A DNA stretch of 64,000 bases from Mesorhizobium sp. WSM4904 (lineage in GTDB: Bacteria; Pseudomonadota; Alphaproteobacteria; Rhizobiales; Rhizobiaceae), in NCBI RefSeq assembly GCF_029674545.1, contig NZ_CP121354.1, positions 4,907,001-4,971,000 of the forward strand, given 5' to 3'. Below the pieces are notes generated by a model that was given only the letters and a program-made list of their open reading frames with translations, had not been told where the DNA came from and ran no database searches. A program made the position numbers and the translations under genes. Within the stretch, counting starts at the first letter, position 1. The number at the start of each line of letters is the position of its first letter. Positions 2,388-53,866 of this stretch are shown here, piece by piece.

Positions 2388-2411
2388 CTTTCCGTCAAAC
2401 GCCGACCCGCT

Positions 2412-3812: not shown

Positions 3813-4002
3813 CGCTATGCTCCCCTACGATGATTTTTGCGCCAGGGCGAACTTTAGCCGAAGCACAGGCGCATTGTCTGCAGGCGGCGGAGATCTGCGC
3901 CTGCGGCCGGCAGTACAGTCGCACCTACGGTATGCACACATTTCCAAGCGGCTGGTCTTTGGCGATAGCGTGCATGGCAGCTTGGCGCATGTCTAATGTA
4001 GC

Positions 4003-4180: not shown

Positions 4181-4367
4181 GGCAATCAAGCCTCAGGTCG
4201 ATCAGTAGTCACAGAAGATGTGTGCATAGCCTAGCCCACGTTGGGGCGAGGAAATGCACCTCGCTCCCCCGCCGGCGCAAGTGGGTTCGGACGAGTCCGC
4301 GAGGTCCCGGCGGCCGCAGCGGCGGGGTTGCAGTCGGCCTCGCCGCCCCCCGCTTGCCGCGGTACCG

Positions 4368-4700
4368 TCACTGGCCGCAATGGCGGCCATTCACCGTCGT
4401 CGGCGCCTTCGGCGGCCTGCCGCTGGCGTTGGGTATGTCCGCGCTTGCGCCCTGTGGACCTGCCGGGCAATTTTGATCGGCGTTCGAATTCATATAATCC
4501 GAGCTCATCCCCCCGCCGCCAATGCTGGAGGTGGTGCCTGGATCAACGACTGTCTTTGTTGCCTGGTGCCTTCTTGCATGGTGCCTTGGGTGGTGGATCA
4601 CGGTAGTTGCCCCGGTGTCGACGTCGGCAGCATTCTGGGCCAGCACCGGCGTCGCAAGGCCGATGGCGAGAACTGAGGCCGCGAGGATTTTCGTAAGCAT
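4368..4700 (-). CDS. Small exported protein, paralogue of 47918-48253
   Basis: 110 residues after choosing the ATG at 4700. A typical signal peptide ends at VLAQN (residues 1-21). The mature part is low-complexity, with His-rich and Gly-rich stretches and the blocks VDPGTTSSI and MNSNADQNCPAGPQGA. The same blocks occur in the protein at 47918-48253, so the two are paralogues. Function is unknown; periplasmic location is inferred. The upstream in-frame codons to 4790 lack a ribosome site and would hide the signal peptide. A candidate EcfG promoter lies at 4761-4785, which suggests general stress control. Confidence 0.8.
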   Translation of the reverse strand: MLTKILAASVLAIGLATPVLAQNAADVDTGATTVIHHPRHHARRHQATKTVVDPGTTSSIGGGGMSSDYMNSNADQNCPAGPQGASADIPNASGRPPKAPTTVNGRHCGQ

Positions 4701-4760
4701 GGCAGACACTCCATTCCGTTTTTTGTTACGGCTTTGTCGGACTGTGTTCGACAGGGGCAG

Positions 4761-4785
4761 AACCCATCGACCGTGCCGACGTTCC
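4761..4785 (-). promoter_or_regulatory. Candidate EcfG (general stress sigma) promoter
   Basis: On the minus strand the sequence reads GGAAC, 17 bases, then GTT, which matches the alphaproteobacterial EcfG pattern GGAAC-N16/17-CGTT except that the base before GTT is G. It lies about 60 bases upstream of the start of the small exported gene ending at 4368. The rest of the gap 4786-5006 shows no gene. Confidence 0.5.
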
Positions 4786-5006
4786 GACACCTTTTTTTGA
4801 GCGATAAAGTGAGGTCATTGTCATAAATCTGTTGTCATCGAGCGCAGGGTTGCCTCATCCCGCTCGATGACATCGGCAGCATTCCGACGCGCCAAAATCG
4901 AGAGCCGTGCGGTGGACACGGCATCACAAGCGGAGACGGGACGCCGGCCAATCGAGACATCGTCGAGCTGACGGAATGGCGGCGCGGGCCGGCGGCCGGC
5001 CTGGCG

Positions 5007-5819
5007 CTATATCACCGTGGTGACCTTGCCCGCCACATCGAGGCGGCAGCCGACTTTCGCCTGGCGGACTTCGATGCCGCCCTGTCTGTCGTAGTCTATG
5101 CGCACCTCGATCGGCGCCGTCAGTCCGCCCCGACGCTGGCGCACGAGGCCTGCGCTGGCCACGTAGACACGCACGGCGCCAAGGGGCTTGGCGGAAGCCG
5201 TGATCGCCGCGCGGCAGGCGCGCACCACGGCGGCCGGCGTGCCGGGTATCGCTTTCAGCGGCGACAGGAACACAAAGGGATAGCCCTTGGCGATCCGCCG
5301 CAGGTCGCCGCTGGCGATTTTCGAGGGCCTCAGCACGGGCGGCAGAGCGACGGGTTGCTGCGTGGTCTTGGCCAAGGCAGTGGCAGGTGTGACCGCGGCG
5401 GTGCTGCGGGGAGAGGTCGCGGCCGATCCGGCGGAAGGATCGTCGCCGGCAGCGACGCCCGTCGAGACGCCTCCGCCTGTGTCGACACCGGCGCCAGCCG
5501 ACACGCCTCCGCCCGTGTCGACACCGACGCCAGCCGACACGCCTCCGCCCGTGTCGACACCGACGCCGGCCGACACGCCACTCAAATTGCCGCTGGTGCT
5601 GACGCCGGCGCCGAGCGATCCGTCGGTGCCGACCGATGTCCCGACATTTGCCCCGCCGACGCCATCGACGCTCGCGCCCACTCCCACCGAGACGCCGCCG
5701 GAACCGGCGCTCACTCCAGCGCTCACCCCGAGACCGCCGACCTTGCCGCCAACGTCAAGAGCCGCGGCAGGCCCGGTCGTGATCCCGATCGCCAGCGCGG
5801 CTGCGAGGTAGTTTTTCAT
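5007..5819 (-). CDS. Exported Gly/Val-rich repeat protein
   Basis: 270 residues. A signal peptide (residues 1 to about 21, ending GPAAALDV) is followed by a long Gly/Ser/Val-rich segment. That segment includes four tandem 11-residue units of the type GVDTGGGVSAG, seen in DNA as near-identical 33-bp repeats (about 5455-5585). A more ordinary folded C-terminal domain of about 100 residues has one Cys close to the end. The ATG at 5819 is preceded by AGGAGGAG. The repeat part could form a beta-helical or fibrous surface segment, but this is inference. I recognise no family. It is transcribed in the same direction as the polysaccharide export gene 41 bases upstream. Confidence 0.75.
   Translation of the reverse strand: MKNYLAAALAIGITTGPAAALDVGGKVGGLGVSAGVSAGSGGVSVGVGASVDGVGGANVGTSVGTDGSLGAGVSTSGNLSGVSAGVGVDTGGGVSAGVGVDTGGGVSAGAGVDTGGGVSTGVAAGDDPSAGSAATSPRSTAAVTPATALAKTTQQPVALPPVLRPSKIASGDLRRIAKGYPFVFLSPLKAIPGTPAAVVRACRAAITASAKPLGAVRVYVASAGLVRQRRGGLTAPIEVRIDYDRQGGIEVRQAKVGCRLDVAGKVTTVI
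5455..5585. repeat. Four tandem 33-bp coding repeats
   Basis: In-frame direct repeats of a 33-bp unit containing GTGTCGACACCG and GCCGACACGCC on the plus strand. They code for the GVDTGGGVSAG units of the exported protein. The copies differ by only a few bases, so copy number may vary between strains. Confidence 0.8.
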
Positions 5820-5860
5820 GGGTCTACTCCTCCTGCGGCATGGATTTCGGCGCGCATGCT

Positions 5861-7375
5861 TCACCAGCGAGGGTCGAGTTTCGGTGGCCGCGTCGGAAGC
5901 AATGCGGCGGGAAGAGCTATGGTCGCCACCACATCAGAGGCCGCCTGATCGAGCTGGGGCGACTTCTGAACCTGCTTGCGCACGGAGCGCCCCGACACAG
6001 TTGCAAGTGGGCTCGGCGAGATCAGGGCTTTCGGCGCGCGCTTCATGCTCACCGTGCGGGCACGCGCCTTGAAGATGTCGAGCGCCTCTCGCGCCGCGCT
6101 CAGGCCGCGGGCCAGGCCGATAGACCTTTCACGCTCCTGCTCAAGCGCGGCGCTCAACGCCGCCGCGGCCTGCTGCGAAGCGTCGCGTTCCCTGCGCATG
6201 GCGTCGAGATCATGCGCGGCGGCGTCCGCCCGCTGGCGTTCCAGCGCCAGCGCGTCGCCGGCCTGCTTCGCTGCTGCCTCAGCTATCTGCCGGTCCTTCA
6301 TGGCGCCGGCCAGCCCGGCCGCAGCCTCATCCGCGCGCGTCTCGAGAGCGTCGATGGTTTGGCGGGACGCAGCGAGTTCCTGTTCGAGGAGCTCGATCTT
6401 GTGCCGCTCCTCGGCAAGCGCCTGGTCGACCGCAGCCTGGGAGGCGTCCGCCGCATGCCGCGCCTTAAGCATCGCGGCCTTCTGGTTGTCCCAGATGATG
6501 GCCCTGGTCTTGAAGCCTTCGATGACGTGCCGCGCCGCCTCCAGGTCGCGCGCCTGCGCATCGGCCGTTTGCCGTTGCTCTTTCAGGGCCTGTCCCTGCC
6601 TGGCCGCCGTGTCAGCCACAGCGCGTGCCTGCGCACTTGCGTCGCGCGCGCCGCGCTGCATGACGTCCAGCGCCGCTCGTGCCGCCGCCAATTCGCGGCG
6701 CAAGGTCTCCTCCTCATGCCCGCCGGGCAAGGTTTGCGCGGCTTGCCTCGGTGCCTGCGCCGCCTTCAGGGCCAGTTCCCCGGATATCGGGGGCTCGCTC
6801 ACCGTTGCCGCGCCCGGTCCGTTCTCGATGTCGGCGCGCTCCGGGGCCGACGCATTGCCGTTGATGTCGGCCACCGCCGACGGTTCGGGCGCTGCCTTGT
6901 CGCCGGTGGGCTCGACGGAAGCCGTCGTTTCCGTGGCCGGTTGGCCGCCTATGCGTTGGACAGTCGTATCCGGCCGCTCGGATCCGCCGCTCCTGGCTTG
7001 CAGTCGATCGGCAATCAGCCTTGCCAGCTCGTCGGCGCGCAAGCCCGCGGCTGCGATGCCGCCGATGTTCGGAAGATCGAGCGTGCCGGTCACGTCGATG
7101 CTGAAACTCCGGTTGAGCTGCAATCCTTCCACGGCGCCGTCGCGCAGGGCAGTCCAGCGCCAGACGCGCAGTTCGATCCTGTCTCCCGGGCCTAGCTTGT
7201 CGTCGGTCGTCGACTGCGCCCTCGCCGGAAATCCCGGCAGCAGAACGAGGCATACGAGGCATAGCATGGCGCCCCGGCCGCGCATTCCAGGAAGCAGATT
7301 CAAAAACCGTCGTTTGAGGGAAGTGAAGTCACGATGGAGGCAAGTTGACTGGGTACTTTGCACCTGATTCATCAC
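5861..7375 (-). CDS. Polysaccharide-export (Wza/GumB-type) protein with long coiled-coil C-terminus
   Basis: 504 residues. An N-terminal signal peptide (hydrophobic LCLVCLVLLPGFPARA, about 38-53) is followed by a poly-export domain starting LGPGDRIELRVWRW, with SIDVTGTLDLPNIGGI typical of the Wza/GumB N-terminal fold. From about residue 195 to 440 the sequence is one long Ala/Glu/Arg-rich coiled coil. The usual SLBB domains are not apparent. This is therefore an outer-membrane-associated export component with an unusual helical extension, perhaps bridging the periplasm. The ATG at 7375 has GAGGTT upstream; a later start near residue 31 is possible. A sulfotransferase gene follows 270 bases upstream on the same strand, which may link both to surface polysaccharide. 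Confidence 0.75.
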   Translation of the reverse strand: MMNQVQSTQSTCLHRDFTSLKRRFLNLLPGMRGRGAMLCLVCLVLLPGFPARAQSTTDDKLGPGDRIELRVWRWTALRDGAVEGLQLNRSFSIDVTGTLDLPNIGGIAAAGLRADELARLIADRLQARSGGSERPDTTVQRIGGQPATETTASVEPTGDKAAPEPSAVADINGNASAPERADIENGPGAATVSEPPISGELALKAAQAPRQAAQTLPGGHEEETLRRELAAARAALDVMQRGARDASAQARAVADTAARQGQALKEQRQTADAQARDLEAARHVIEGFKTRAIIWDNQKAAMLKARHAADASQAAVDQALAEERHKIELLEQELAASRQTIDALETRADEAAAGLAGAMKDRQIAEAAAKQAGDALALERQRADAAAHDLDAMRRERDASQQAAAALSAALEQERERSIGLARGLSAAREALDIFKARARTVSMKRAPKALISPSPLATVSGRSVRKQVQKSPQLDQAASDVVATIALPAALLPTRPPKLDPRW

Positions 7376-19027: not shown

Positions 19028-20086
19028 GTGAGGCGCGTTTTTCGATTGCTCGCCGCTGTGGTCATGGCGTCCGGCGTCGCCGGGTGCACCAGCGTTTCCT
19101 ATTACGCGCAGTCGATTGAGGGCCATGTCGAGATCATGGCAGCGCGCAGGAATGTCGGGAGGCTGACCCGCGATCCTTCGACGCCGGAGGCATTGCGCGC
19201 CAAGCTGACGTCGGCGAGCGCCATACGCCGCTTTGCCACGGACGAGTTGGCGCTGCCCGACAACAGCAGCTACCGCAGCTATGTCGACGTCGGCCGGGAC
19301 AATGTGACCTTTGCCGTTTTTGCCGCGCCGCAATTTTCGCTCACGCCGATAACATGGTGCTTTCCGGTCTTCGGCTGCGTTCCATATCGGGGCTACTTTT
19401 CGCAAAAATCCGCGGCTGAAAGCGCTGCCGAGCTGCAGCGGCAGGGGCTGGACGTTTACGTGTCGGGCGTCACCGCCTATTCCACGCTGGGGTGGTTCAG
19501 CGACCCGCTGCTCAACACCATGCTGCGTCAGGACGACACCTATATCGCCAGCCTTGTCTTTCACGAACTGGCGCATCAGAAAATCTATGTGAACAACGAC
19601 TCTGCGTTCAACGAGGCTTTCGCGGTTGCCGTCGAAACCAGCGGTGTCCGGAAATGGCTCCGCGCCACGGGAAACCGCGCCGGATTGCGCCGCTACGAAG
19701 CCAATCGCAAGCGCAACGCCGATTTCCTCGGACTGATATCGAAAACCCGGGACGAGTTGAGGCAGGTCTACGGAAGTCCCCGTGCCCCGGAGCAGATGGC
19801 GGCCGCCAAAACAGCCACGATCGACAGGCTGCGGATGCGCTACCGCCACATGCGCGACACGCGATGGGCCGGATACCGGGGCTACGATGCCTGGTTCAAT
19901 AGCCCAATCAACAACGCAAAGCTCGCCGCGACCGCCGTCTACGGCGAACAAGTTCCGGCGTTTCTTCGCCTGTTCGACTTGTGCTCCGGCGACTATCCAA
20001 GATTCTATGCTTCCGTTCGGCGGATGGGGGCCTTACCTGCAGCTTCGCGGGAGCAGGCGCTGAAGGCGGCGGCGACGTGCGATTGA
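19028..20086 (+). CDS. Lipoprotein zinc aminopeptidase (PF10023-like)
   Basis: 352 residues. A lipobox (VAGC, Cys20) marks it as a lipoprotein. The zinc-protease motif HELAHQ is at 179-184, with a Glu-containing NEAFA block at 195-199 as the likely third ligand. This matches the family annotated as putative aminopeptidase. GTG at 19028 is the start that gives a proper signal peptide. It stands alone between the GHKL pair and convergent genes. Confidence 0.85.
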   Translation: MRRVFRLLAAVVMASGVAGCTSVSYYAQSIEGHVEIMAARRNVGRLTRDPSTPEALRAKLTSASAIRRFATDELALPDNSSYRSYVDVGRDNVTFAVFAAPQFSLTPITWCFPVFGCVPYRGYFSQKSAAESAAELQRQGLDVYVSGVTAYSTLGWFSDPLLNTMLRQDDTYIASLVFHELAHQKIYVNNDSAFNEAFAVAVETSGVRKWLRATGNRAGLRRYEANRKRNADFLGLISKTRDELRQVYGSPRAPEQMAAAKTATIDRLRMRYRHMRDTRWAGYRGYDAWFNSPINNAKLAATAVYGEQVPAFLRLFDLCSGDYPRFYASVRRMGALPAASREQALKAAATCD

Positions 20087-20276
20087 CGTTGACAGCCGGA
20101 GGGCATCCCCGCCCCTGCGCGATGCTGGCTCGAGCGTCATGCAAGGAAATTTCATATGGCAGCGAGACGGAGTGGGGGAGCGCCATATGCGATTGCCCCC
20201 TGGGCAGCCAAGTGAGGGAGCGCCAGGGCCGCAATAGCTTCCGGGCCTTGTCCGGCGCCCGGTCAGTCGCTTTGCC

Positions 20277-20510
20277 CTACTGGCTCGAAAACGTCACGGT
20301 CACGCCGCGCTGCCGAAAATAAGCCTGCATCAACTTGCGGCCGGCGCGGTTGTTGTGTGCCAATTTAGCCGGATCGAACACCGCCTCTTTTAGCCCATCT
20401 CGTGCCAGCGCCGCTTTGAGCGTCGCGATATGCGCGTCGATGTCGGCATTGTCGGCACGGAGCGAGGCGTAGATGCTTTCGGTCGCTTGGGCCACGGTCG
20501 GTTCGCTCAC
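20277..20510 (-). CDS. Small hypothetical protein
   Basis: 77 residues from a GTG at 20510 with AAAGGACG upstream. Predicted mainly helical with a basic C-terminal part (NNRAGRKLMQAYFRQRGV). No family recognised. It is 156 bases upstream of the end of the sugar ABC operon on the same strand, separated by that operon's terminator. Confidence 0.6.
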   Translation of the reverse strand: MSEPTVAQATESIYASLRADNADIDAHIATLKAALARDGLKEAVFDPAKLAHNNRAGRKLMQAYFRQRGVTVTFSSQ

Positions 20511-20611
20511 AGATGTCGTCCTTTGGTTGGTGGAGCGGCGGCTTAACACAGATTCGCGGCTCCGCCGATACCGATGAGCCCGTCAGCGCACAGCGCCTGG
20601 CCCCCAAAAAA

Positions 20612-20634
20612 CAAGGCCCCTCCGAGGGGCCTTG
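20612..20634 (-). terminator. Rho-independent terminator of sugar ABC operon
   Basis: Perfect 10-bp stem (CAAGGCCCCT / AGGGGCCTTG) with a three-base loop, followed on the minus strand by six T residues, 33 bases past the binding-protein stop. Confidence 0.9.
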
Positions 20635-20666
20635 CCATATCACCTTGGAGTCTTCGCACCCTGCCG

Positions 20667-21653
20667 CTATTTGCCGGCCAGCTGCTTGGCGTTCTCCGGC
20701 GTGATCGCAGTGGTGTCCACCGTCACGGTCGGCTCAACGGAGGTCGCGCAGTCGAGCAGGATCTTCTTTGCCATGTCGATCGCTTCCTTGGCGCCCGTCG
20801 GATAGGTGAATGTCGCCGCCCAATCACCCTTGGCGACGGCCTCGATGCCGCCGGCCGGGCCTGGCAGGCCGTCGGTGCCGATGATCTTGACGTCCTTGCC
20901 GGCGCCCTTGGCGGCGAGCAACGCGCCCGCGGCCATCATGTCGTTCGAGGCATAAAGCACCTTGATGTCGGGATGCGCCTGGAGCATGGCGGAAAAGGCG
21001 GTCTGGGCTTTATCCGGAACCCAGTCGGCGGCCTGCTCGGCGACGATCTGGATCTTGGCATTGGCCTTCACGCCTTCCTTGAAGCCGTTCAAGCGCTCCA
21101 CCGCCGGCGTCGAGCTCGGCAGGCCCTCCAGCACCGCCGCCTCGCCGCCATCGGGCAAAAGCTTCGATGCCGTGTACTTGCCGGCTTCCTCGGCGATCTT
21201 GAAATTGTCGCCGCCGATGAAGGCCGTGTAGTCCTTGCCGGGGTCGCCCACCGTCTTGCGGTCGAGCTCGATGACCGGGATGCCGGCATCCATGGCGCGC
21301 TTCACGGCAGGCGTCAGCGGGGCGGCCTCGAAGGGCGAGATCAGCAGAAGATCGACCTTCTGGGTGATGAAGTTGTCGACCTGCGAGGTCTGCGTGTTGA
21401 CGTTTCCGGCGCCGTCGGCGATCTGCAGCGTGAAGCCGGGCACTTCCTTGGCCGCCGCCGTCAGCTCGTCATTGACGTGCTGGCGATAGGGCTCGGCATT
21501 GTTGGCCTGCGAAAAGCCGATGACGAACTGGCCGTCCTTGGCGCAGGCCTTGACCATCGGGTCCGCCGCCTGCGCGGCGCCTGCAACGCACAGGCCGGCG
21601 CTTGCCAGAAGCGCGACCCGAAGGACGCGCGATCCTCTCAGTGTGGTTCTCAT
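20667..21653 (-). CDS. Sugar ABC transporter periplasmic binding protein (RbsB-like)
   Basis: 328 residues. Signal peptide to about 29 (CVAGAAQA), then a periplasmic binding protein type 1 domain: FVIGFSQANNAEPYRQ, the VDLLLISPFEAAPLTP block, GIPVIELDR, and VLYASNDMMAAGALLA. This matches the ribose/galactose/xylose-type cluster; the sugar is not predictable. ATG at 21653 follows GAGGAGGAGACTGAGT. Last gene of lacI-ATPase-permease-binding protein, 73 bases after the permease gene. Confidence 0.92.
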   Translation of the reverse strand: MRTTLRGSRVLRVALLASAGLCVAGAAQAADPMVKACAKDGQFVIGFSQANNAEPYRQHVNDELTAAAKEVPGFTLQIADGAGNVNTQTSQVDNFITQKVDLLLISPFEAAPLTPAVKRAMDAGIPVIELDRKTVGDPGKDYTAFIGGDNFKIAEEAGKYTASKLLPDGGEAAVLEGLPSSTPAVERLNGFKEGVKANAKIQIVAEQAADWVPDKAQTAFSAMLQAHPDIKVLYASNDMMAAGALLAAKGAGKDVKIIGTDGLPGPAGGIEAVAKGDWAATFTYPTGAKEAIDMAKKILLDCATSVEPTVTVDTTAITPENAKQLAGK

Positions 21654-25441: not shown

Positions 25442-25646
25442 AGCAGGTTGTGAAAATCTTTTGGAAGCAGCGAAGAGAGCCTGCTTCGGGCGCCGATGCT
25501 TCAATTGTCGAGGCCGGCACTATCTTTCGATCGCCTTCCGGCGGGGATAATACGAAAGGCCAGAGCAATCTCGTCCGCCGCGCCGATCCTCCCCTCTACG
25601 GCCGCGCATGCGCCTGTCTCGAGCGCGGTGCCGGGCAACGGCAGGC

Positions 25647-26504
25647 TCAGTTGCCGTCGGCGACTGTCTTTATCCAGTTCATATACGGAAAGACCCTGGC
25701 ATAGACGCCGTATTTCTTGGCAAGGCCGCAGCCATCTCCCCAACTGGAAAGCCCGACCAGGTAGGGTCCCTGCGGGGTTTCAACCACTGCCGGCCCGCCG
25801 CTGTCTCCGAGACAGGCGTCGCTACCGCCATTTACGTTTCCAGCGCAAAACATCGACGCCTTCACCTGCCCGTTAAGAGCGTCGGGGGCGTTGCAGACAT
25901 CCGTCGTCTGCGTCGGCACGGACGCCTCGCGCAGATCGTCGCTCTTGGACGTCCTCCTGTCCGGATCGGTCACGCCCCATCCGCTGATCGTCAGGAACGT
26001 CCGGTCGAGCAGCGCATCCGGCATGTCGGCGACCGGAAGCGATCCCGACAAGCCATTGTCATCGACCTTGAGGACCGCCAGGTCGTTCTCCTTGGTCGCC
26101 GCATCGTACAACGGGCTGACGACCGACTTCGAAACAGCGTGCCGCGTGCCGCCGGCGGACAGTTTTGCCGTCCCGCCGAGCACGAAGATCGGATGATCCT
26201 TCGCCTGCAAAATGCAATGGGCGGCGGTCAGGACAATCGATGGCGAGAGGGAGACGCCGCCGCAAAACTGGGCGGCGAAATTGTTTGGGATCTCCGCATA
26301 GCCGATCGCCACTTGCCAGGCGAAAAACCCGGTTCGGGTGACAACCTGGCCTTCGATAATCTTCTTGTCGTCGCCGAACTTGCCGCTGCGCCAGGCCGCC
26401 TCGCTTTCTTCGAAAGTCATCTGGGCCCGCGCATTGGAGGACGAGACGAGCGATGCGCACTGCACGATGAAAAAAACCGCGAAAAGGCAGCGCCATCCTC
26501 TCAT
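25647..26504 (-). CDS. Exported trypsin-like serine protease (S1)
   Basis: 285 residues. A signal peptide (1 to about 28, ending NARAQ) is followed by a chymotrypsin-fold domain beginning IIEGQVV at about 49. The catalytic triad is complete: TAAHC (His96), KENDLAVL (Asp141) and GDSGGP (Ser235). The residue six before the Ser is Asp229, predicting cleavage after Lys/Arg. Six Cys suggest disulfides in the periplasm or outside. The start overlaps the stop of the caspase-like gene by four bases (ATGA), so the two are co-translated. A second, divergent S1 protease ends the opposite arm of this cluster. Confidence 0.93.
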   Translation of the reverse strand: MRGWRCLFAVFFIVQCASLVSSSNARAQMTFEESEAAWRSGKFGDDKKIIEGQVVTRTGFFAWQVAIGYAEIPNNFAAQFCGGVSLSPSIVLTAAHCILQAKDHPIFVLGGTAKLSAGGTRHAVSKSVVSPLYDAATKENDLAVLKVDDNGLSGSLPVADMPDALLDRTFLTISGWGVTDPDRRTSKSDDLREASVPTQTTDVCNAPDALNGQVKASMFCAGNVNGGSDACLGDSGGPAVVETPQGPYLVGLSSWGDGCGLAKKYGVYARVFPYMNWIKTVADGN

Positions 26505-27529
26505 CGTCGCCCCGCCGCGATTTCCTTAAGCTTCTTCATGACGTCGATGATGTTCTGGCCGTTCCTGTAACGGATCAGGTAGTCCAGAACGGTATCCCTG
26601 TCCGAACTGGTCGATATCGACGCCCAAAGATCGTCCGCCTCCTTCAGGATGGTTGGCGTGAGGGTGATGTAAATCACTCCGATCATACCATCCTCCTCCA
26701 CGGGAATGTTCCCAATATGGTGCAGATCGTCGTCGTTACGCACCCCAAGGAAATCATTGAAGATGGGACGCCCCGGCCTGCCGAAATTCTTCAACAGCGC
26801 GGCTGTGTAGGGGCTGTTTCTGTCGGTCGGCCGAACCGATTGATCCACCGACTGACCGTTGCGATTGGCGTAGCCGGTCAGGTATTCGGCGCGCTCGGCA
26901 TACATCGACAGCTCCGGTTGCGGAACGCCGACGGCGTCCGAAAGCGACTTCGAGGAGGAGATCGAGGCCGTCTCGGATCCACGCAGAAAATCCACGTTGG
27001 CCACGGGCAGCTCGCTGTCCTTCCACTGGAGCTCATTGCGGCAGGCGTCGACCAGTTGGACGATGATGGCGTCGCGCATCAGCGTTTCGATAACGGTTTC
27101 CACGGCATAGCTGTTCACCGCTGGGTCATGGCCGCCGAGGCCGGCATCGACGGCCGCCAGGAACTGCTTGCCGCCTTCCGTGAAACCATGCCCGGAGAAA
27201 TAGACCACGACAATCGGCTTGGTCTGCCGACTTGCCTGCCAGATGCTACTCCTGGAGACCAGATTGGCCAATTCGGCATCCATGTCGTTCTTGTGCGCAT
27301 CGAGCACGATCCGCACGTCGTCGAAACCCAGTTTCGACTGCAGAAAGGAGCCGAAATCCAGCGCGTCGTTCCGTGCCCTGGGCACGCCGCCAACGTACTC
27401 GTAGTTGGCGTTGCCTATGACGAGCGCGATGCGTGGAACGGTGGTGTTTGCCAGGCAAGCAGATTGAGAAGCCAGCAGCGACGCCGCCAAGGTCAACAGA
27501 GACAGAACAAGCTCCCATCCCCGTGCCAT
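26501..27529 (-). CDS. Exported caspase-like (C14) cysteine protease
   Basis: 342 residues. Signal peptide (1 to about 28) then a caspase p20-like domain starting RIALVIGNANYE (33-44). The dyad is visible: VVVYFSGHG (His114) and VQLVDACRN (Cys163). A C-terminal domain of about 100 residues, unassigned, contains a WASI-SSDRDTVLDYLIRY stretch resembling caspase-associated repeats. Bacterial caspase-like proteins usually cut after Lys/Arg (paracaspase/orthocaspase type). An exported one directly coupled to a trypsin-like protease is unusual. The ATG at 27529 is four bases after the stop of the collagen-like gene; there is no strong Shine-Dalgarno, which fits translational coupling. Confidence 0.9.
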   Translation of the reverse strand: MARGWELVLSLLTLAASLLASQSACLANTTVPRIALVIGNANYEYVGGVPRARNDALDFGSFLQSKLGFDDVRIVLDAHKNDMDAELANLVSRSSIWQASRQTKPIVVVYFSGHGFTEGGKQFLAAVDAGLGGHDPAVNSYAVETVIETLMRDAIIVQLVDACRNELQWKDSELPVANVDFLRGSETASISSSKSLSDAVGVPQPELSMYAERAEYLTGYANRNGQSVDQSVRPTDRNSPYTAALLKNFGRPGRPIFNDFLGVRNDDDLHHIGNIPVEEDGMIGVIYITLTPTILKEADDLWASISTSSDRDTVLDYLIRYRNGQNIIDVMKKLKEIAAGRR

Positions 27530-27533
27530 CGGC

Positions 27534-28604
27534 CTATTGCCTGACAGGATTGAAGACGGCACTCATCTGCTGCTCCGACAAGGTCGCAAAGCCGACCACG
27601 CCGTTCAGGCCAATACGCCCGGCCGGCCCGGCGCTCCCGCTTCTTCCTGGCGCGCCGTCGAGACCGTTTTGAGCCATGATGCCGCATCGGCCGAAGTCTC
27701 TACCGGCGAGCCCGCCCGCGCCGGGTGGACCGCCGTCGCCCGGCCGGCCGCTTTCGGCCCCGAGGCCGGCGTTGTTTTGCACTTCCAGCTTCTGGAGCTC
27801 ATCGGCCGAAGACGTGAAGACTAGCACGTCGCCGCTGCTTCCACCATTGCCACCGCCGCCGCCGTTCCCGCCATTGCCTCCGTCGCCACCAGAACCGCCG
27901 GCGGTTGGAGGACGAATACAGGTCTGGCTGACGAAAAGGTTCTTGAGAATATCCTTGCCGATCGAATCCGCACCCGCGGCGCCAGTGCCACCCCTTCCCC
28001 CAGTCTGGCCTTCGCCACCGGGTTGGCCGTCCATACCGGAGACGTCTATGCGGATACTTCCCTCGCCTTCAATATGCCTGAACAGCAAAACAAGCCCGGG
28101 AGCGGAAGCGCCATCGACACCAGCATTGCCTGCCTCCCCGTCATAGCCACGGGCGCCGGGCTGGCCGGGGTCACGCGCAGCGATGCCGTCCGGTGCCCGT
28201 CCCCGTGGCGGCATCTTACCTTGGCCCACGGGCCTGCTCCATGTGATCTCGACGTCACCCGAAACCTTGATGGTATCGGCCACGATGAAAATGCTGTTGC
28301 CCAGACCGGTGGGCGACGACGCTGGGAAAATCAGCTTGGTGTTCGGCGAGAACGTCATCGTTCGCGCGACTAGGTTCATTTCCTTGGTCTGCAGACGGCC
28401 CTCGAGGAACAAGGTTTCCGCCATGAAGCCGGTAAGGCCGCTGATCTGCCGCAGCACCGAAACAAGCGCGGCGGATTGAAACTCGGTGAATTCCTTGCGG
28501 TTGGCCGGTATGGCGCCGCCCGCCGACGCGAGTCCCAGCGCCAAAGCCGCAGCGTAGACAAGGCTACGGCGCCAAGCCGTAACGTGCCCACCTCGCCCCC
28601 GCAT
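27534..28604 (-). CDS. Exported collagen-like (Gly-X-Y) repeat protein
   Basis: 356 residues from the ATG at 28604. Signal peptide (about 1-32), a non-repetitive domain of about 110 residues (KEFTEFQSAALVSVL... with a predicted beta-rich part), then at least five Gly-X-Y runs separated by short beta-type segments. Examples are GQPGARGYDGEAGNAGVDG, GMDGQPGGEGQTGG, and a Gly/Asn-rich run. Such repeats form triple helices or sticky surface rods. The frame opens upstream at a TTG (28676), but the ATG is preferred because it starts the signal peptide. First gene of the minus-strand arm, 283 bases from the divergent arm. It could be a scaffold or substrate of the linked proteases; this is inference. 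Confidence 0.82.
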   Translation of the reverse strand: MRGRGGHVTAWRRSLVYAAALALGLASAGGAIPANRKEFTEFQSAALVSVLRQISGLTGFMAETLFLEGRLQTKEMNLVARTMTFSPNTKLIFPASSPTGLGNSIFIVADTIKVSGDVEITWSRPVGQGKMPPRGRAPDGIAARDPGQPGARGYDGEAGNAGVDGASAPGLVLLFRHIEGEGSIRIDVSGMDGQPGGEGQTGGRGGTGAAGADSIGKDILKNLFVSQTCIRPPTAGGSGGDGGNGGNGGGGGNGGSSGDVLVFTSSADELQKLEVQNNAGLGAESGRPGDGGPPGAGGLAGRDFGRCGIMAQNGLDGAPGRSGSAGPAGRIGLNGVVGFATLSEQQMSAVFNPVRQ

Positions 28605-28821
28605 CCAGCGCCCCCAGCGTGTGAATCCAGTTTCGGATAAGACCTTAGTTTCATGGCGACCGATCCGCAATGGCAAACTCAGCGGGAGATGTTTCGCAAG
28701 GAGGGCGGCTCAATAACTTTCGCCATCGGGTTGTGAAGTTGTTCAACCCTGCTCCTCCAGGTCTTTCGCCAGCTCGCGTGAGCCGCTTATCCTCCCTATG
28801 CTCTCGTGCTCAGCTTTTTGA

Positions 28822-28849
28822 TTGAAACCAAAAAATAACTCTCTATGAT
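28822..28849 (+). promoter_or_regulatory. Sigma70-type promoter of the plus-strand arm
   Basis: TTGAAA, a 16-base AT-rich spacer, and TATGAT, placed 38 bases before the GTG start of the first plus-strand gene. It is in the only AT-rich stretch between the divergent arms. Confidence 0.6.
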
Positions 28850-28886
28850 TTTTGCACAGGCAGTATCTCCGGGGGGGGAGGTCGGC

Positions 28887-29969
28887 GTGAGGGATGTCGA
28901 TCTTTTTCGTAATTTCAGTCGTCTTTTTGTATCAATACTGTTCATTTTTATGGGCTGCTGGCCCGTTCGGGCGCAGACCACGCCCGCGCAGGTGGCCGAG
29001 CAGGTCACTGCGTTGCTCAATTTTTTGAAACCGGTCAACCTTGCGGCGCCAGGAGATCTCGATGACAAGAACTTCGATCCGCTCATCGAGCAGTTGCTAA
29101 GGCTTAGAGCTGCAAAGAAGCCAAGTATACTCGAAATAGAAAAGGTAAAAATATCATCCAGCCTTCTGGGAAGCAATTTCTCCACGGCCTTCCCGAGCGC
29201 CGCGTGGCCCCGTGACCTCATCGACGAAATAAAGAAGGCCGCGACCTATTTCGACGGGCTGGTCTTCCTTCGCGATCCTACCCAGGCGCTGCTCAGACGA
29301 ATGGATGTGCTGACCGCCTCGGCACAGGCGATCGACATGGACGACGCCGCGGTGCAGGCTTCGGTCGAGGCCCTCGTCAAGAAGCTGACCGCCGGCAAGC
29401 CGACATCCGCGAGAAACCAGGCGAACCTTGCCAGGGACACGCTGAAGGGGTTGCTCGACGACGCCGCGATGAAAAGGGTGCTGATCGAGGACAAGGACGT
29501 CTCCAGCAAGCTGGCGCAGTTGCGAGAAGCGCTCCAGCCCTTTGCCGCCGATAAGCAGTTACGAGTCCACATTGTCAGCGCGCTTTACGGCGATATCGGC
29601 GCCATCAACGACATCCTTCGGCGCGGACATTCCGTGACGATGAAGGAACGGGATCGCTGGTGCTTGGCGGGTGCGGCGGTGGCGACGTCATGCGAGCGGC
29701 AGACGAACTGTCAGGCCAATGTGGATTTCAAGCAGGCGCTTTGCGGCTATGACCCAGCGCCTCTTATGGCGTCCGCCTACAAGGGGCTGGTCGTCGTCTA
29801 TCAGTGCCGGAGCAATGACGACGCCCTTTGGAACGACGTCGATAAAATGGACTACACCAAGGCGCGCATCGATCGAAAATTCGTACCGCCGCCGCCGACA
29901 GCCACGACGCGCCTTACGCTGCTCTACAGCAAGGAACAGAGCTTCCGATGCGCGCCACCGCTGAACTGA
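28887..29969 (+). CDS. Exported protein of unknown family, first gene of plus arm
   Basis: 360 residues. The GTG at 28887 has GGGAGG five bases upstream and places a signal peptide at 1-29 (ILFIFMGCWPVRAQTT). The body is largely helical, with coiled-coil-like stretches around 40-110 and 150-230. A short Cys-containing segment (CLAGAAVATSCERQTNCQ... CGYDPAP) near 255-290 probably forms disulfides, and the end is proline-rich. I recognise no family. It overlaps the next gene by 22 bases. Part of the exported protease cluster. Confidence 0.78.
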   Translation: MRDVDLFRNFSRLFVSILFIFMGCWPVRAQTTPAQVAEQVTALLNFLKPVNLAAPGDLDDKNFDPLIEQLLRLRAAKKPSILEIEKVKISSSLLGSNFSTAFPSAAWPRDLIDEIKKAATYFDGLVFLRDPTQALLRRMDVLTASAQAIDMDDAAVQASVEALVKKLTAGKPTSARNQANLARDTLKGLLDDAAMKRVLIEDKDVSSKLAQLREALQPFAADKQLRVHIVSALYGDIGAINDILRRGHSVTMKERDRWCLAGAAVATSCERQTNCQANVDFKQALCGYDPAPLMASAYKGLVVVYQCRSNDDALWNDVDKMDYTKARIDRKFVPPPPTATTRLTLLYSKEQSFRCAPPLN

Positions 29970-31324
29970 AGCCTTTGCACCGGCGGCGCCCCCCGGGACG
30001 CCTTGGCCTGCGGCCGGCACAACTGGCGTTTGCGGCGCTATCGGCGATTTCGGTCCTGACTGCGGCGTGCTCGGTCGTCGAGACATACGGCGTTTCGGTT
30101 GCGCCCGGCGAACCTTCCCCCGATTTTCGTTGCAAGAGCGAAGCCGGTTCATACTCTCTGTCGGCTACAACCTGGTCCTTCGAAATCAACACCTATGACA
30201 ACAGTCCCTTTGTGTTGGAAGCCATCCAGGAAAAGCACTATCCCGACGCTCGTCATACGTATTGCCTCGACTACCTGGCCTCGGGCCTAGCGAAGGATCA
30301 GCTCACCGTCGGCTACAGCTCGGCGGACACCAGCAAGGGTCTCGGGGGCGGACTCCTGGAGTATGTCGCCTCCTATGCCGTCGATAAGAGCCAGGTCGTC
30401 ATCCGCAACCTGATCCGCGCCATTTTCATCGGCATCTCGGGAAGAGCGGACTTTACCTTCGCGCGCGAGTCGATACCGACCACGAACAAGAAAACCCAGG
30501 GTCGGTTCGAGGTCGATCCGCTCGACGAGCAGGAGATGGCGACGCTGAACAAGCGGCTGGCCGATTTCGGGTTCTGTCTCGTGCTTTCCGGATATTCCTT
30601 CGAGGAGGGACGCACTGGCACGTCTGCGGAAGCCTATTGCTCCGACCCGCTGGGCACGATCCGCAGGCATCCTTCGAAGGCTCTCGAACAAGCTCACCGA
30701 CAAGCATGGCTCGTCGAGCAGCCGGAACGCACAGGTATCCTCTATCGCCCTCGCCTGCCCTATGCGCTGGAAATCTACACGCAGGACGATCCTCACCATA
30801 GCGCATGGCAATTGCGCAAGGTCACGCAGGTCGAGATCGAGAACATCTCCCCGATCGTTTCGCTGGGCATCAACCGGGCTCTTTTCGCCGAGGCGAAGGT
30901 CGGGCTTGAGTTCGATGCCGGCGTGCTGAAGAACTTCTGCCTCTCGAAATCGAGCGAGGTAGCCGGCTTCGTCGATATTCCGCTCGATATCGTCTACGGG
31001 ATCACCGAACTGCCTGCGCAAACGATCAAGGCCGAGGTGGAGCGTGCGAACTCGACCGTCGCGCTGACCCAGGCACAAATGAACCTGCTCGACACCCAAC
31101 GCCAATACGAACTGTTCCTGCGCGAGAAGAACACAAGCTCAAGCCTGGGCAGCCCTGGCGTCATTCAGAATTCAAACGGCTGCAACAACAACAACTGCAC
31201 CGTCACCGCGCCCACCATGACGACCAACGAAGGGGTCAAGCAGGCCGGTCCGTTCCTGGAAGCGACTGGCCTCTGCCAGCAGCTCACCACCAAGCTCAGC
31301 GCGATCCGACCGGGGCAACCATGA
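29948..31324 (+). CDS. Lipoprotein A of the protease cluster
   Basis: 458 residues. Lipobox LTAAC (Cys41) after a long basic N-terminus. The mature protein shares clear blocks with the next gene: YCLDYLASGLAKDQLTVGY, GILYRPRLPYALEIY, and SLGINRALFAEAKVGLEFD. The pair are therefore paralogues. A coiled coil near 345-390 and an Asn-rich stretch follow. AAGGAAC precedes the ATG. Family unknown. Probably membrane-anchored and facing the periplasm or outside. Confidence 0.8.
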   Translation: MRATAELKPLHRRRPPGRLGLRPAQLAFAALSAISVLTAACSVVETYGVSVAPGEPSPDFRCKSEAGSYSLSATTWSFEINTYDNSPFVLEAIQEKHYPDARHTYCLDYLASGLAKDQLTVGYSSADTSKGLGGGLLEYVASYAVDKSQVVIRNLIRAIFIGISGRADFTFARESIPTTNKKTQGRFEVDPLDEQEMATLNKRLADFGFCLVLSGYSFEEGRTGTSAEAYCSDPLGTIRRHPSKALEQAHRQAWLVEQPERTGILYRPRLPYALEIYTQDDPHHSAWQLRKVTQVEIENISPIVSLGINRALFAEAKVGLEFDAGVLKNFCLSKSSEVAGFVDIPLDIVYGITELPAQTIKAEVERANSTVALTQAQMNLLDTQRQYELFLREKNTSSSLGSPGVIQNSNGCNNNNCTVTAPTMTTNEGVKQAGPFLEATGLCQQLTTKLSAIRPGQP

Positions 31325-32649
31325 CAACGCCCTCGCCAAAGCGTTTCTCGAGGCCGTCCCTGGCGGCGATGCTGAGTCTTAACCTGCTGGTGTGCGGCTG
31401 CGGGCCGACGCTGGTCAGCGGACCGGTTGAGGAAGTGTCGGCTGGCCAAGGCGGCAGTGCAGGTTGCCGCTATCCGGCCGGCGCCTACGCGCTTCCGCTC
31501 GATCTTCTGCATGTCGAAATCCGCAAGACCGTGGGCGCGGATCGGGTTTTCTACGCCGCCCAGGACATTACGACACGGCGAACCGCCGATCCGAGCCGTC
31601 TCTACTGCTTGGATTTCCTCGGTTCGGCGCTTGCCAACGACAAGCTGGCCATCAGCCACGCAACCGATACCGGCAACGATGCCACATCCAGCCTGCTGCT
31701 GACCAAAATCGGCTCTGAGTTCGACGACAGGTCGCTCAAGATCGCCAACGCCGTGGTGGACGCCGCCGCGCAAGTGGCGGTTCGACCCCGAGGCGCTTTC
31801 GGGGTACCGGGGGACGGCAACAAGATCGAACTGGTCGTCGGGCAATTCGACTTCGATCCGTTCAACTACGAGCAGATTCAAAAGGTCAACCACGCGCTCA
31901 GATCGCTCGACCACTGCGTGTTTCTCGATCCGACCAATGATCCCTACGTGCCTGCTTGGCAGGCATCGCTCTGCTCTTCCGCCGCGTACATGCCGCCGAA
32001 GGATCCTTCCTATCACGGCCTGTCGGTGATCAAAGCCGATCCGCCACCGCTGTCCGACAAATTGCAAGGTGTGCTTTACCGCCCGCTTCTCACCCACAAG
32101 CTGGTCATCATGAAGCGAAACCACGACCCGGTAGGTGCTGAGTGGCAACTGTTCCAGACCAAGCGGGTGCAGATGACGAATGCGGCGCCGGCGTTTCTGC
32201 TCCAGATCAATCGCTCGCTCTTCGTCGACCGCACCATGGACATCGACTTCTCGAATGGTGTGCTGCAGGCCGTCAGGATCGACAAGCCGAGCGAAGCCGA
32301 AGCGCTTTCGGGATTCGTGCTGCGCACGATGCAGGTCATCGTTTCCATTCCGGTCAGAGCCCTGATCGTCGGCAAGACCGATGCGGACAATCGCAAGGCC
32401 CTCATCCAGGCGCAGGCCCAAATGATAGCGACGCTGGAGGCCTATGACCAAGCCGTCGAAAAGGAAAAGCAAAGGCGCCAGGCCAACTCCACAACTGCCA
32501 ATTCGCCGGTGCGCAGCACGCTCGCCGTACCTGCGACAGCCGATCCATCAGCTCAAACGGATTTGTCGGCCTGCCTCAACGCAGCCGCCGCCACGGAGGA
32601 TCCACTTGCCAAATGCACCGAGATTCTCCAGGGAGCCGGAGTGCAATGA
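31321..32649 (+). CDS. Lipoprotein B of the protease cluster, paralogue of A
   Basis: 442 residues. Lipobox VCGC (Cys27). Shares with lipoprotein A the blocks YCLDFLGSALANDKLAISH, GVLYRPLLTHKLVIM, and FLLQINRSLFVDRTMDIDF. C-terminal coiled coil (about 350-390) and a Cys-containing tail. Four-base overlaps (ATGA) on both sides tie it to lipoprotein A and to the second trypsin-like protease. Function unknown. Confidence 0.8.
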   Translation: MTTPSPKRFSRPSLAAMLSLNLLVCGCGPTLVSGPVEEVSAGQGGSAGCRYPAGAYALPLDLLHVEIRKTVGADRVFYAAQDITTRRTADPSRLYCLDFLGSALANDKLAISHATDTGNDATSSLLLTKIGSEFDDRSLKIANAVVDAAAQVAVRPRGAFGVPGDGNKIELVVGQFDFDPFNYEQIQKVNHALRSLDHCVFLDPTNDPYVPAWQASLCSSAAYMPPKDPSYHGLSVIKADPPPLSDKLQGVLYRPLLTHKLVIMKRNHDPVGAEWQLFQTKRVQMTNAAPAFLLQINRSLFVDRTMDIDFSNGVLQAVRIDKPSEAEALSGFVLRTMQVIVSIPVRALIVGKTDADNRKALIQAQAQMIATLEAYDQAVEKEKQRRQANSTTANSPVRSTLAVPATADPSAQTDLSACLNAAAATEDPLAKCTEILQGAGVQ

Positions 32650-33788
32650 ACGGCGCCTGCCGGTTCCTCATGGCTGTCGCGGTGCTTTGCCTGTCCTTGG
32701 CTGCACGGGCGCAGGAAGTGAGGCACGACGTTATCTATCCGGCGTGTCCGCCTTCTCCCAATCCGTTTTGCATGGCGGCCGATTTCCGAAGCCTGTTGCG
32801 ATTACAGACCAGCGGCGGAGACATAAGGCTGATTTCCGACGACAGCCTTCTGATCGAAGTTGATGCCACCGGACACGCAACGAGCGGTATCCACGACCGA
32901 ATCTTCGAAGGTATCCGCATTCCGCCTATTCTGGACGAGGTGGTTCGCATCGAGTTCGATGTAGGGCTCAGCCGGCCGGCGCTGTGCACCGGCGTCGCGC
33001 TGAACAGGAATACGGTCCTAACAGCGGGCCATTGCGCGTGCGCCGTGCAGGCAGCCTATCGCGTCAGCTTTCCTCGATATTCCGGTAAGATGTTTCGAGC
33101 TCAGGAATCGGAGTTCCACGATCCGCGCAAGCTGTCCCGCCCGCCGCTGCCTTTTTTGGGCTACGATTGCCGGCGACTGATGTATCCCCAACCGGGAAAG
33201 GACCTGGGACTGCTCTTCCTGGAGCCGTCCGCCGCGCCATCGAGCGAATTCGACCCGGTGGCGCCTCCGGCGGCGCCATTTTTCCTCCTGCACGACATGC
33301 TCAACAAGGGTGAGCTGCGCAATCTGCTCATTTTTGGCTACGGGCGGCGCGAGGACCAGACAATGCCTCACGATCTGATCGGCGCTTCGACCCCTATCCG
33401 CGACCCGTTCTGCCTGCGCGACAGGTACGATGGAGCACAATGCGGCATTTTTCGCGAATTCACTCTTTCCAGCCTGGTGACGGAAGTCGATCCGGGCGCC
33501 GACACATGCGACGGCGACAGCGGCGGGCCGGTTTATTTCATCGGAACCAAATCGTTGCCGGAGGGGGTCGAACTGCACCGAATGCTGGTGGGAATAACCT
33601 CCAGAGGGCTGGGCGGCGTACCCCAGTTCGGCCAGGGTTATTGCGGTGGTGGCGGCGTCTACACCGCGGTTGCGCATCCCGACGTGTTGAAATGGTTGGC
33701 CGTCAATGGAGTGCCATTGGAGGTCGGCCTGACGGCGAAAAGATTTGCCGAGAAAGCCTTCGTCGAAAAATCCATCTTCGACCAATAG
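32646..33788 (+). CDS. Second exported trypsin-like serine protease
   Basis: 380 residues. Signal peptide (1-22, ending AARAQ), a 90-residue N-terminal extension, then an S1 domain with TAGHC (His129), GKDLGLLFL (Asp186) and GDSGGP (Ser292). Asp286 at the specificity site again predicts Lys/Arg cleavage. It is divergent from the 25647 protease in sequence and size, so not a recent duplicate. Last gene of the plus arm; it overlaps lipoprotein B by four bases. The extension could be a propeptide. Confidence 0.9.
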   Translation: MNGACRFLMAVAVLCLSLAARAQEVRHDVIYPACPPSPNPFCMAADFRSLLRLQTSGGDIRLISDDSLLIEVDATGHATSGIHDRIFEGIRIPPILDEVVRIEFDVGLSRPALCTGVALNRNTVLTAGHCACAVQAAYRVSFPRYSGKMFRAQESEFHDPRKLSRPPLPFLGYDCRRLMYPQPGKDLGLLFLEPSAAPSSEFDPVAPPAAPFFLLHDMLNKGELRNLLIFGYGRREDQTMPHDLIGASTPIRDPFCLRDRYDGAQCGIFREFTLSSLVTEVDPGADTCDGDSGGPVYFIGTKSLPEGVELHRMLVGITSRGLGGVPQFGQGYCGGGGVYTAVAHPDVLKWLAVNGVPLEVGLTAKRFAEKAFVEKSIFDQ

Positions 33789-33833
33789 AGCCGAAGGCGC
33801 GGCAAGGTTATGCTGCGGTCGGCTGCAGCTTGG

Positions 33834-35054
33834 CTATAAGGCGAGCCACGCCGTGCCGGCGAGGAGCGTCAGCAAGGTCAGCGGCAGGCCGACCTTGAAG
33901 AAGGACATGAAGGAGAGTTCCTTGCCCGCCGCCTTCGCCTGTTCGGCGACGATGAGGTTGGCGACGGAGCCGAGCAGGGTGAAATTGCCGGCGAGCGTCG
34001 AGCTCATCGCCACGACCAGCCAGGCGCGCTCGGGGTTTTCGAGTCCCGGGATGAAGGGCCGCAGCGCCAGCACCGCGGGCACGTTGCTCATGATGTTGGA
34101 AAGCACGGCGGTGAAGCCGGATAGCCGCCAGACATCGTCGAGGCCGATGGTCTTTGCCCAGGCGATCATGTCGGGGGTGAGCAGCGTGCGCTCGGCGCCC
34201 GCCACCACCACGAACAGGCCGGCGAACATGAAGAGCAGCGGCCCGTCGATCTCGCGATAGATGCGGTGCGGCTTGATTGCGCGGGTGACGAGCAGGAAGG
34301 CGCCGGCGATCAGCGCCGCCTTGGCGACAGGCACGCCGGCGAAGAAGGCGACCGCCAGCGCCAGGCAGACGATGGTCGCCTTCAGCACCTGCCCCGGCAG
34401 CATGCGGCCGCGATAGACCTCGGGGCTGAGCTCCGCGGGCCGCGCAAATTCGGCACGGTAGACGATGCGGATGATGACGATGACGGCGACAAGGCCGAAC
34501 AGCGCCACCGGCGCGAGCGCTGCCGTGAAGGCCGGATAGGAAATGCCCGACAGCGCGCCGATCACCATGTTCTGCGGATTGCCGGTGATGGTGGCGACGC
34601 TGCCGCAGTTGGAGGCCGTGCAGGTGGCGATGAGATAGGGAACCGGGTTGCGCCGGATGACGCGGGTGACGTGGACGACGATCGGCGCCATCACCAGGCA
34701 GATCGCGTCATTGACCAGGAAAGCGGAGAGCACGCCGGTCAGAAGCGTCACCATGATCAAGAGCATGAACGGCGCGTGCGCGTGCTCGATGGCGAAACCG
34801 CCAAGCGCGCGGAAGGCGCCGGACACCTTCAGATGCGCCACCACGATCATCATGCCGAGCAAGAGCGTGATGGTGTCGAAATTGATGGCGCGGTAGGCGT
34901 CCTCGATGCCGATCGCACCGATGGCGATCATGGCGGCCCCGCCGAGCAGCGCGATGCCGGCACGGTCGAGCCTGAGGCCCGGAATGCGCCCGACGGCCAC
35001 GCCGGCATAGGTGGCTGCCAGGATGAAAAGCGCGCCGGCGCCCGTCCATGTCAT
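33834..35054 (-). CDS. SLC13/ArsB-type anion permease
   Basis: 406 residues with about 11 membrane helices. Landmarks are the SAFLVNDAICLVMAPIV block, TASNCGSVATITGNPQNM and LSNIMSNVPAVL, which fit the ArsB/NhaD/SLC13 ion transporter superfamily. The substrate cannot be read from sequence and no ars genes lie near. ATG at 35054 follows GGGAACC; the frame upstream to 35264 is not protein-like. Confidence 0.85.
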   Translation of the reverse strand: MTWTGAGALFILAATYAGVAVGRIPGLRLDRAGIALLGGAAMIAIGAIGIEDAYRAINFDTITLLLGMMIVVAHLKVSGAFRALGGFAIEHAHAPFMLLIMVTLLTGVLSAFLVNDAICLVMAPIVVHVTRVIRRNPVPYLIATCTASNCGSVATITGNPQNMVIGALSGISYPAFTAALAPVALFGLVAVIVIIRIVYRAEFARPAELSPEVYRGRMLPGQVLKATIVCLALAVAFFAGVPVAKAALIAGAFLLVTRAIKPHRIYREIDGPLLFMFAGLFVVVAGAERTLLTPDMIAWAKTIGLDDVWRLSGFTAVLSNIMSNVPAVLALRPFIPGLENPERAWLVVAMSSTLAGNFTLLGSVANLIVAEQAKAAGKELSFMSFFKVGLPLTLLTLLAGTAWLAL

Positions 35055-53607: not shown

Positions 53608-53696
53608 TCCCAAGAATGCACGAAAAAATTCCCGGTTGCAGCAATTGCGTGAGGTCGCAAATCGCCGTTCAGCCCCGATGCCCCGATATGTTTCTC

Positions 53697-53866
53697 ACGC
53701 AATTCCGGACGGAAAACCGCGGCACACTTTTCCTGGAATTGCTCTTTTGCTTTTTGCGCAATTCCGGACGGAAAACCGCGGCACACTTTTCCTGGAATTG
53801 CTCTTTTGCTTTCGCGCAATTCCGGACGGAAAACCGCGGCACACTTTTCCTGGAATTGCTTTTAAA
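53697..53866. repeat. Three tandem 58-59-bp repeats
   Basis: Copies start at about 53701, 53760 and 53818, each reading AATTCCGGACGGAAAACCGC then GGCACACTTTTCCTGGAATT with short T-rich spacers. AATTCC/GGAATT ends and a CCGCGG centre make each unit an imperfect palindrome. Single copies of this motif are common in Mesorhizobium intergenic DNA; a triple run is less usual. No gene is present here. Confidence 0.88.

Follow-up and report, generated by a model that had tools for sequence, protein, structure and literature searches.

Caspase-like and trypsin-like proteases of bacteria have mostly been discussed as effectors of intracellular systems centred on an NTPase (an enzyme acting on nucleoside triphosphates, NTPs). 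In the part of the source that was available, NTP-dependent conflict systems (VMAP ternary, iSTAND, EACC1-caspase and NucA-trypsin types) are described as a constant core with variable effectors, trypsin- and caspase-like ones among them, for which proteolytic release is proposed (PMC7159879). A second report, likewise available in part, describes conflict systems diversified by diversity-generating retroelements (DGRs), in which C-type-lectin sensors lie beside trypsin- or caspase-like proteases together with STAND or MoxR ATPases, several targets being predicted to be cytoplasmic (PMC10907252); and a metacaspase survey, in its accessible portion, reports that four Rhizobium strains have an operon for proteases and protease inhibition that includes a metacaspase (PMC3501461). 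Here we analysed a 64,000-nucleotide stretch of Mesorhizobium sp. WSM4904 (hereafter the window; positions 4907001-4971000 of a 6.65-Mb single-contig genome), in which seven adjacent genes, named A to G, form an island. Four of them, D-E-F-G, recur in other genomes as a core beside a protease arm that differs between loci, and we propose, with a probability of roughly 40%, that core and arm together constitute a protease cascade that is set off by recognition and acts in the periplasm or at the outer surface.

Compared with what the available parts of these reports describe, the island resembles the NTP-dependent conflict systems in combining a constant core with variable effectors of trypsin and caspase type, but no NTPase is named in the seven proteins, and export and lipoprotein anchoring are predicted for the core. 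With the DGR-diversified systems it shares a predicted lectin-fold sensor beside trypsin- and caspase-like proteases; unlike their C-type lectin fold, D resembles the SUEL type, and no ATPase is named in the core. The rhizobial operons of the metacaspase survey also unite caspase-like with other proteases; the word trypsin is absent from its main text, and the Rhizobium operon of its Fig. 5 may or may not be the present module. PADLOC-DB 2.0 found no complete known anti-phage system in the seven genes and returned two weak single-gene matches (LmuA and caspase), the former being a 26-bit match of A to Lamassu LmuA, presumably through the protease domain, no further Lamassu component being listed among the seven proteins. 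Against the NCBIfam model of EACC1-type caspases, B scored 35.1 bits (cut-off 140), and NCBIfam named no adjoining EACC1 gene among the seven proteins, the existence of an EACC1 model in NCBIfam being unverified. No system was named in the seven genes by PADLOC, NCBIfam or PHROGs, the last of which gave no match for any of the seven proteins, and no description of the module was found in the titles and abstracts searched, a coverage that excluded most subscription journals and bioRxiv.

All seven open reading frames (ORFs) of the divergent cluster reported by the first-pass annotation are present on the strands it gave, and so are its two complete trypsin triads, its caspase motifs and its two lipoboxes. 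On the minus strand, A (25647..26504) encodes a predicted exported trypsin (Trypsin PF00089, E-value 9e-45, 153.6 bits, cut-off 20.6) with the triad H96/D141/S235 and a zymogen-type site between K48 and IIEG; B (26501..27562, GTG start) encodes a predicted exported caspase-like protease, placed in family C14 by Peptidase_C14 PF00656 (E-value 1e-16, 61.4 bits, cut-off 21.4), with the dyad H125 (SGHG) and C174 (DACRN) and the acidic residues D66 and D172; and C (27534..28676, TTG start) encodes a predicted exported protein rich in Gly-X-Y. The description of C as a Gly-X-Y repeat protein holds in composition (26% Gly from residue 137), the triplets forming five separate runs of 6-9 rather than one long collagen helix, and the protein scores below the Collagen PF01391 cut-off (18.8 vs 27.2 bits). 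The two arms are 168 base pairs (bp) apart, and this gap (28677..28844) is presumed to be a control region, a promoter role being suggested by the coordinates. On the plus strand lie D (28845..29969), predicted to be exported and to carry a SUEL-lectin-like C-terminal domain (DNA 29550-29969) by profile comparison; E (29948..31324) and F (31321..32649), predicted lipoproteins with the lipoboxes TAAC (C41) and VCGC, respectively; and G (32613..33788), a predicted exported core trypsin (PF00089, E-value 3e-14, 53.7 bits, cut-off 20.6) with a site between R and IFEG and the triad H140/D197/S303. No Pfam family matched D, E or F at E-values up to 1. E and F lie in tandem and are paralogues (24% identity, E-value 1e-27), a relation absent from the first-pass annotation. 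Its four-base overlaps stand for A/B and E/F, while B/C, D/E and F/G overlap by 29, 22 and 37 bases when the longest ORFs are taken; an alternative in-frame ATG of G at 32646 would bring the F/G overlap to 4 bases.

These seven genes are one 8.3-kb island, present in one genome and missing from a conspecific one. By blastn of the window against L071 and L072 (handles in L and G are ours, for loci and genomes), the island extends over 25543..33837 and is absent from the conspecific genome G539 and the congener G540. The flanks in G539 are 94% identical to the window up to 25542 and from 33838, with ~220 bp between them, and those in G540 are 91% and 83% identical, with ~50 bp at the island site; across both genomes the left matches end at 25542 or 25441, and the 8.3 kb between the flank end points holds all seven genes. 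G539 gave no match to a profile of E. A third genome, G545, matched the window on the left side only, within the stretch compared. Guanine-plus-cytosine content is 60-62% in the island, 65-69% to its left and 63-64% to its right, but the island does not stand out by this measure, since equally low values occur elsewhere in the window; no repeat of more than 9 bp is shared by the island ends, hence no insertion mechanism is evident. Elsewhere in the window, a sequence of ~55-61 bp is repeated head to tail at 53689-53862 and also matches a place in the G539 flank.

Matches to the E profile were found in 6 of 99 genomes of the same genus, five with the core and one (G542) with a lone relative, and in 5 of 394 genomes of the family, the own genome included; a search with F gave 11 of 397 genomes in the order, again counting the own genome. 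E also occurs on two conjugative Rhizobium plasmids, and further families of the order have cores too, among them a core in a Hyphomicrobiales metagenome-assembled genome. The neighbourhoods of E and F matches were examined by script, and 15 core loci were recognised by an E-F pair with a G-type trypsin gene next in order (the window, L028, L029, L030, L031, L038, L039, L040, L041, L055, L056, L057, L095, L096 and L097). The order D-E-F-G is kept in 14 of the 15, with D of L029 assigned by place and cysteine pattern rather than by score; the exception is L031, whose contig begins inside E. Left outside this set were L032 (a tandem pair on a 4.4-kb fragment), L033 and L098 (each one lipoprotein with a G-type trypsin) and L042 (the same locus as L028). 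In a tree of E and F sequences the two clades are broadly parallel, apart from F of L029 and of L031, which fall on the E side, and the long branches of L033 and L098. The collagen-like gene C is outside the conserved set: relatives were found only in L040, a Mesorhizobium record, and in one further protein (P0036), and matrix remodelling with a collagen-like scaffold, one of the roles initially suggested, finds no support beyond close relatives. The wider family includes lone E/F-like lipoproteins (L034, L035, L036, L058, L083, L084, L085 and L086; ORFs of ~270-520 amino acids), mostly without a nearby protease, L058 adjoining a subtilase.

What accompanies this core changes from locus to locus. 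A caspase with an A-type trypsin is found in five of the 15 (the window, L040, L038, L039 and L096), two of these being conjugative Rhizobium plasmids; five carry a subtilase (S8) arm (L028, L055, L056, L095 and L041, the last also with a Trypsin_2 protease); and four have a further S1 or Trypsin_2 protease (L029, L030, L057 and L097), the match in L057 reaching 27.7 bits against a cut-off of 27.6. Another protease gene thus lies at most two genes away from 14 of the 15 cores (exception, L031), a figure based on Pfam assignments of chosen neighbours and not like for like with a count made by catalytic motif, in which an adjoining protease was recorded at 10 of 15 cores and, among ten control loci carrying a single E/F-like lipoprotein, at two (one-sided Fisher P 0.03; the controls include L037, a doubtful family member). 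Gene order within the caspase arm takes two forms: in L038, L039 and L096 the genes run D-E-F-G-caspase-trypsin on one strand with short gaps after G, and in the window and L040 caspase and trypsin lie on the opposite strand together with C. Joint occurrence of the caspase, both trypsins and both lipoproteins, named by the first-pass annotation as the pattern that would support a functional set, was therefore found in only part of the loci, the caspase/trypsin-A arm being one of several; the opposite pattern, homologues scattered without co-occurrence, was not seen, A-B arms without a core falling outside the systematic search. Since sister cores carry unlike arms (L041 vs the window and L040; L097 vs L096), the core is inherited together while the arm changes.

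Two further observations concern these arms. The subtilases of L028, L055, L056 and L095 lie 14-267 bp 3' of G on the same strand and begin without a signal-peptide-like start; they may be cytosolic, or exported by an unusual route, in an operon whose other products look exported. At L033 (2517-8906), a trypsin with a DUF4384-like part (below cut-off), a 997-amino-acid WD40 protein and a Memo/PGA_cap protein form a row divergent from an E/F-like lipoprotein and a G-type trypsin. L033 had been considered as a caspase locus on account of caspase-like motifs in the WD40 protein and was dropped; C14 is not among the matches listed for that protein (25 of 43 families), and no match was obtained with its last 298 residues.

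The core is predicted to be extracytoplasmic, as judged from its N-termini. Scored with our own hydropathy script in place of a dedicated predictor, all seven window proteins have a hydrophobic N-terminal stretch, in line with the signal peptides or lipoboxes originally ascribed to each. Among the homologues, the N-terminal hydropathy peak is at least 2.0 in 7/7 A, 6/6 B and 15/15 G proteins and at least 1.9 in 12 of 14 D proteins, the two below being L039 (1.73) and L040 (1.54), the latter scored from a short start. All but one of 13 E and all 15 F proteins show a lipobox pattern, although in two of the F proteins (L038 and L055) the script may have caught the wrong cysteine. D, E and F contain 6 to 13 cysteines each, a content that suits an oxidising compartment.

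The C-terminal domain of D is predicted to be lectin-like, of the SUEL type. Residues 236-374 of D, its last 139, carry a cysteine pattern that we took to be SUEL-like. When a profile of 11 D domains was compared with all sequences of the Protein Data Bank (PDB), the seven matches up to an E-value of 2 were all SUEL/rhamnose-binding lectins or latrophilins, individually weak (E-values 0.15-1.4), and five further matches up to an E-value of 10 were VPS26A. An hhalign comparison of D domains with five of these lectin domains gave 91.7% and an E-value of 7.9e-7, vs 0.07% for the E/F profile as the one control.

Residues of the proteases are consistent with activation by one another. A Lys precedes the presumed new N-terminus (Ile/Val) in five of six A-type trypsins, and a Lys or Arg stands at the presumed site in 8 of 13 G-type trypsins examined (of 17 found). 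A and G of the window both carry an Asp at the S1-specificity position, a feature that directs trypsins to cut after Lys or Arg. B keeps D66 as well as D172 of the DxC motif. In the accessible part of one source, two acidic residues of a trypanosome metacaspase bind basic P1 residues and orthocaspases cut after positively charged residues (PMC6426788); on our reading of the motif D66 and D172 would be the equivalents of these acidic residues, and B is expected to cut after Arg or Lys.

A cascade fits these zymogen-type sites and residues, and we propose a triggered, amplifying one because proteases bearing basic sites are also expected to cut at basic sites and are accompanied by a lectin-like candidate sensor and lipoprotein anchors. 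In the order of events that we infer, the lectin-like domain of D would sense a ligand (a glycan or glycoprotein) while E and F would hold the complex at the outer membrane; G would act as the initiator zymogen, cut at its own basic site; cut G, or B, would then cleave A after Lys48. The response could amplify itself, A, G and B all being expected to favour basic sites, and the effector proteases might degrade envelope, phage-receptor or competitor proteins.

Several observations weigh against this cascade. As to the sensor, the D domain of the window reaches only 15.0 bits against SUEL_Lectin (PF02140; cut-off 31.4; model positions 9-80 of 80), that family is unlisted for the other seven of eight D domains scanned, full-length D has no Pfam match and the full-length D profile has a top hit that is not a lectin. 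The five template domains of the hhalign comparison were drawn from hits of the same D profile and thus make no independent test. In the available part of a study on latrophilin-1, sugar binding is greatly weakened or lost when Glu42 or Lys120 is altered (PMC2430599); D aligns a Lys in the window and an Arg in many rows, and the Glu position is not alignable. Because the Lys is not kept everywhere and the Glu cannot be aligned, the ligand of D may be other than rhamnose, or no sugar at all. As to the remaining parts, fold comparison gave no significant match for the predicted core of E; the basic residue is absent from the presumed site in 5 of 13 G and one of six A proteins; and none of the five arm subtilases has a signal-peptide-like start (0/5; peak <1.9), which is unfit for a cascade exported as a whole. 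Two of the ten lone E/F-like loci (L058 and L082) adjoin a protease as well, by motif alone; the genes flanking the island, for a LacI-family regulator and a transporter of CitMHS/ArsB type, are not defence genes; and a phage collection gave no match to F.

The same observations bear on the alternatives. A secreted set of nutritional or processing proteases, which would digest extracellular protein or mature envelope proteins with D, E and F as anchoring or folding helpers and no triggered cascade, is possible if doubtful: all arms are proteases, enzymes of the trypsin, subtilase and Trypsin_2 folds are commonly secreted, and the LacI-family regulator is accompanied in the left flank by a sugar-ABC-type ATPase (judged from its translation). 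It leaves unexplained the fixed D-E-F-G block with a changing arm, the caspase partner in five loci, the zymogen-type sites and the subtilases that lack a signal peptide. We hold it unlikely that the proteases serve to attack rival bacteria or predators, being set free or displayed when cells touch and harming the other cell, whose surface D would recognise. The predicted recognition domain of D, the surface-type N-termini and the sporadic carriage, including conjugative plasmids, would agree with such a weapon; however, Pfam and PADLOC name no immunity, secretion or polymorphic-toxin domain among the seven proteins, and a trypsin-like enzyme as the sole toxin would, to our knowledge, be unusual.

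Action at the legume root or in the nodule, where the system would trim plant or bacterial surface proteins, is suggested by the rhizobial nature of the window's kin and of the plasmid carriers, but we consider it very unlikely given that the core extends to other families of the order, the metagenome-assembled genome included, and is present in only 5 of 99 genomes of the same genus. Most improbable of all, in our view, is that two unrelated gene groups came to lie side by side only because they use one insertion site. In favour of this reading, the window has its arms in divergent orientation and a caspase arm is absent from 10 of the 15 cores; if L096 shares its arm with L038 and L039 by descent, this arm occurs in two of 15 lineages and the association has a P of 0.04. 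Against it, the arm occurs in three of 16 lineages when L096 is counted apart, vs ~2% expected per 20 kb (P 0.004), the background density of caspases being taken from the window genome alone; with L033 dropped, these values replace an earlier 3e-4. Against this reading also stands the placement of A and B 3' of G, on the same strand and with short gaps, in L038, L039 and L096. Six more caspase-like loci (L002-L007), all in open frames of more than 500 amino acids, lie elsewhere in the window genome.

Sporadic occurrence, presence or absence of the island and carriage on conjugative plasmids suggest that the module is an accessory trait. As to its purpose, we favour envelope defence or some other role in conflict because, beside the sporadic presence and the plasmids, conflict-type genes lie near the three cores checked (PADLOC applied to ten chosen neighbours of L038, L041 and L095 only, with no enrichment test): HmaB/HmaC genes and an AriA/GajA/OLD-like ATPase fragment near L038, a GASH protein and a second caspase near L041, and an LmuA-like metallo-hydrolase near L095. 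These neighbourhoods can be described further. On the conjugative plasmid of L038, beside the module, 3790-6869 and 19290-21101 contain Hma-type methylase and ATPase genes, apparently in split frames, and AAA ATPase genes, the first of them AriA/GajA/OLD-like. In L041, the GASH-domain protein and the second caspase-like protein (721-4007) lie ~1.8 kb from the subtilase arm and resemble a GTPase-associated conflict locus. In L095, 14517-17714 encodes a 626-amino-acid protein without a Pfam match and an LmuA/RTasMBL-like metallo-hydrolase, 3' of the subtilase on the same strand.

In outline, the lectin pathway of complement in animals consists of a recognition protein, a collagen-like partner and trypsin-like zymogens outside the cell. 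The likeness of the island to it is one of outline only; unlike animal complement, the island has its collagen-like gene only in close kin, and its caspase and subtilase arms are without counterpart there. The boldest form of our proposal, an innate immune cascade of complement type that Alphaproteobacteria would run beyond their cytoplasmic membrane, in which a SUEL-lectin-like sensor, two lipoprotein scaffolds and a trypsin zymogen would be a mobile core triggering plug-in executioner proteases (caspase and trypsin, subtilase, or others), must be regarded as rather doubtful, a little more so than the nutritional set considered above.

Beside the intracellular, NTPase-centred systems, a mobile and predicted extracytoplasmic module with a fixed lectin-like, lipoprotein and trypsin core and changing proteases would be a different design, one without an ATP-dependent sensor. 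It also provides new pointers, namely an E/F lipoprotein family without a Pfam model, a predicted SUEL-like domain in these bacterial proteins and Rhizobium carriers suitable for testing. With simple mutants, the module would allow one to ask whether amplifying protease cascades operate in the bacterial envelope as they do in animal blood.

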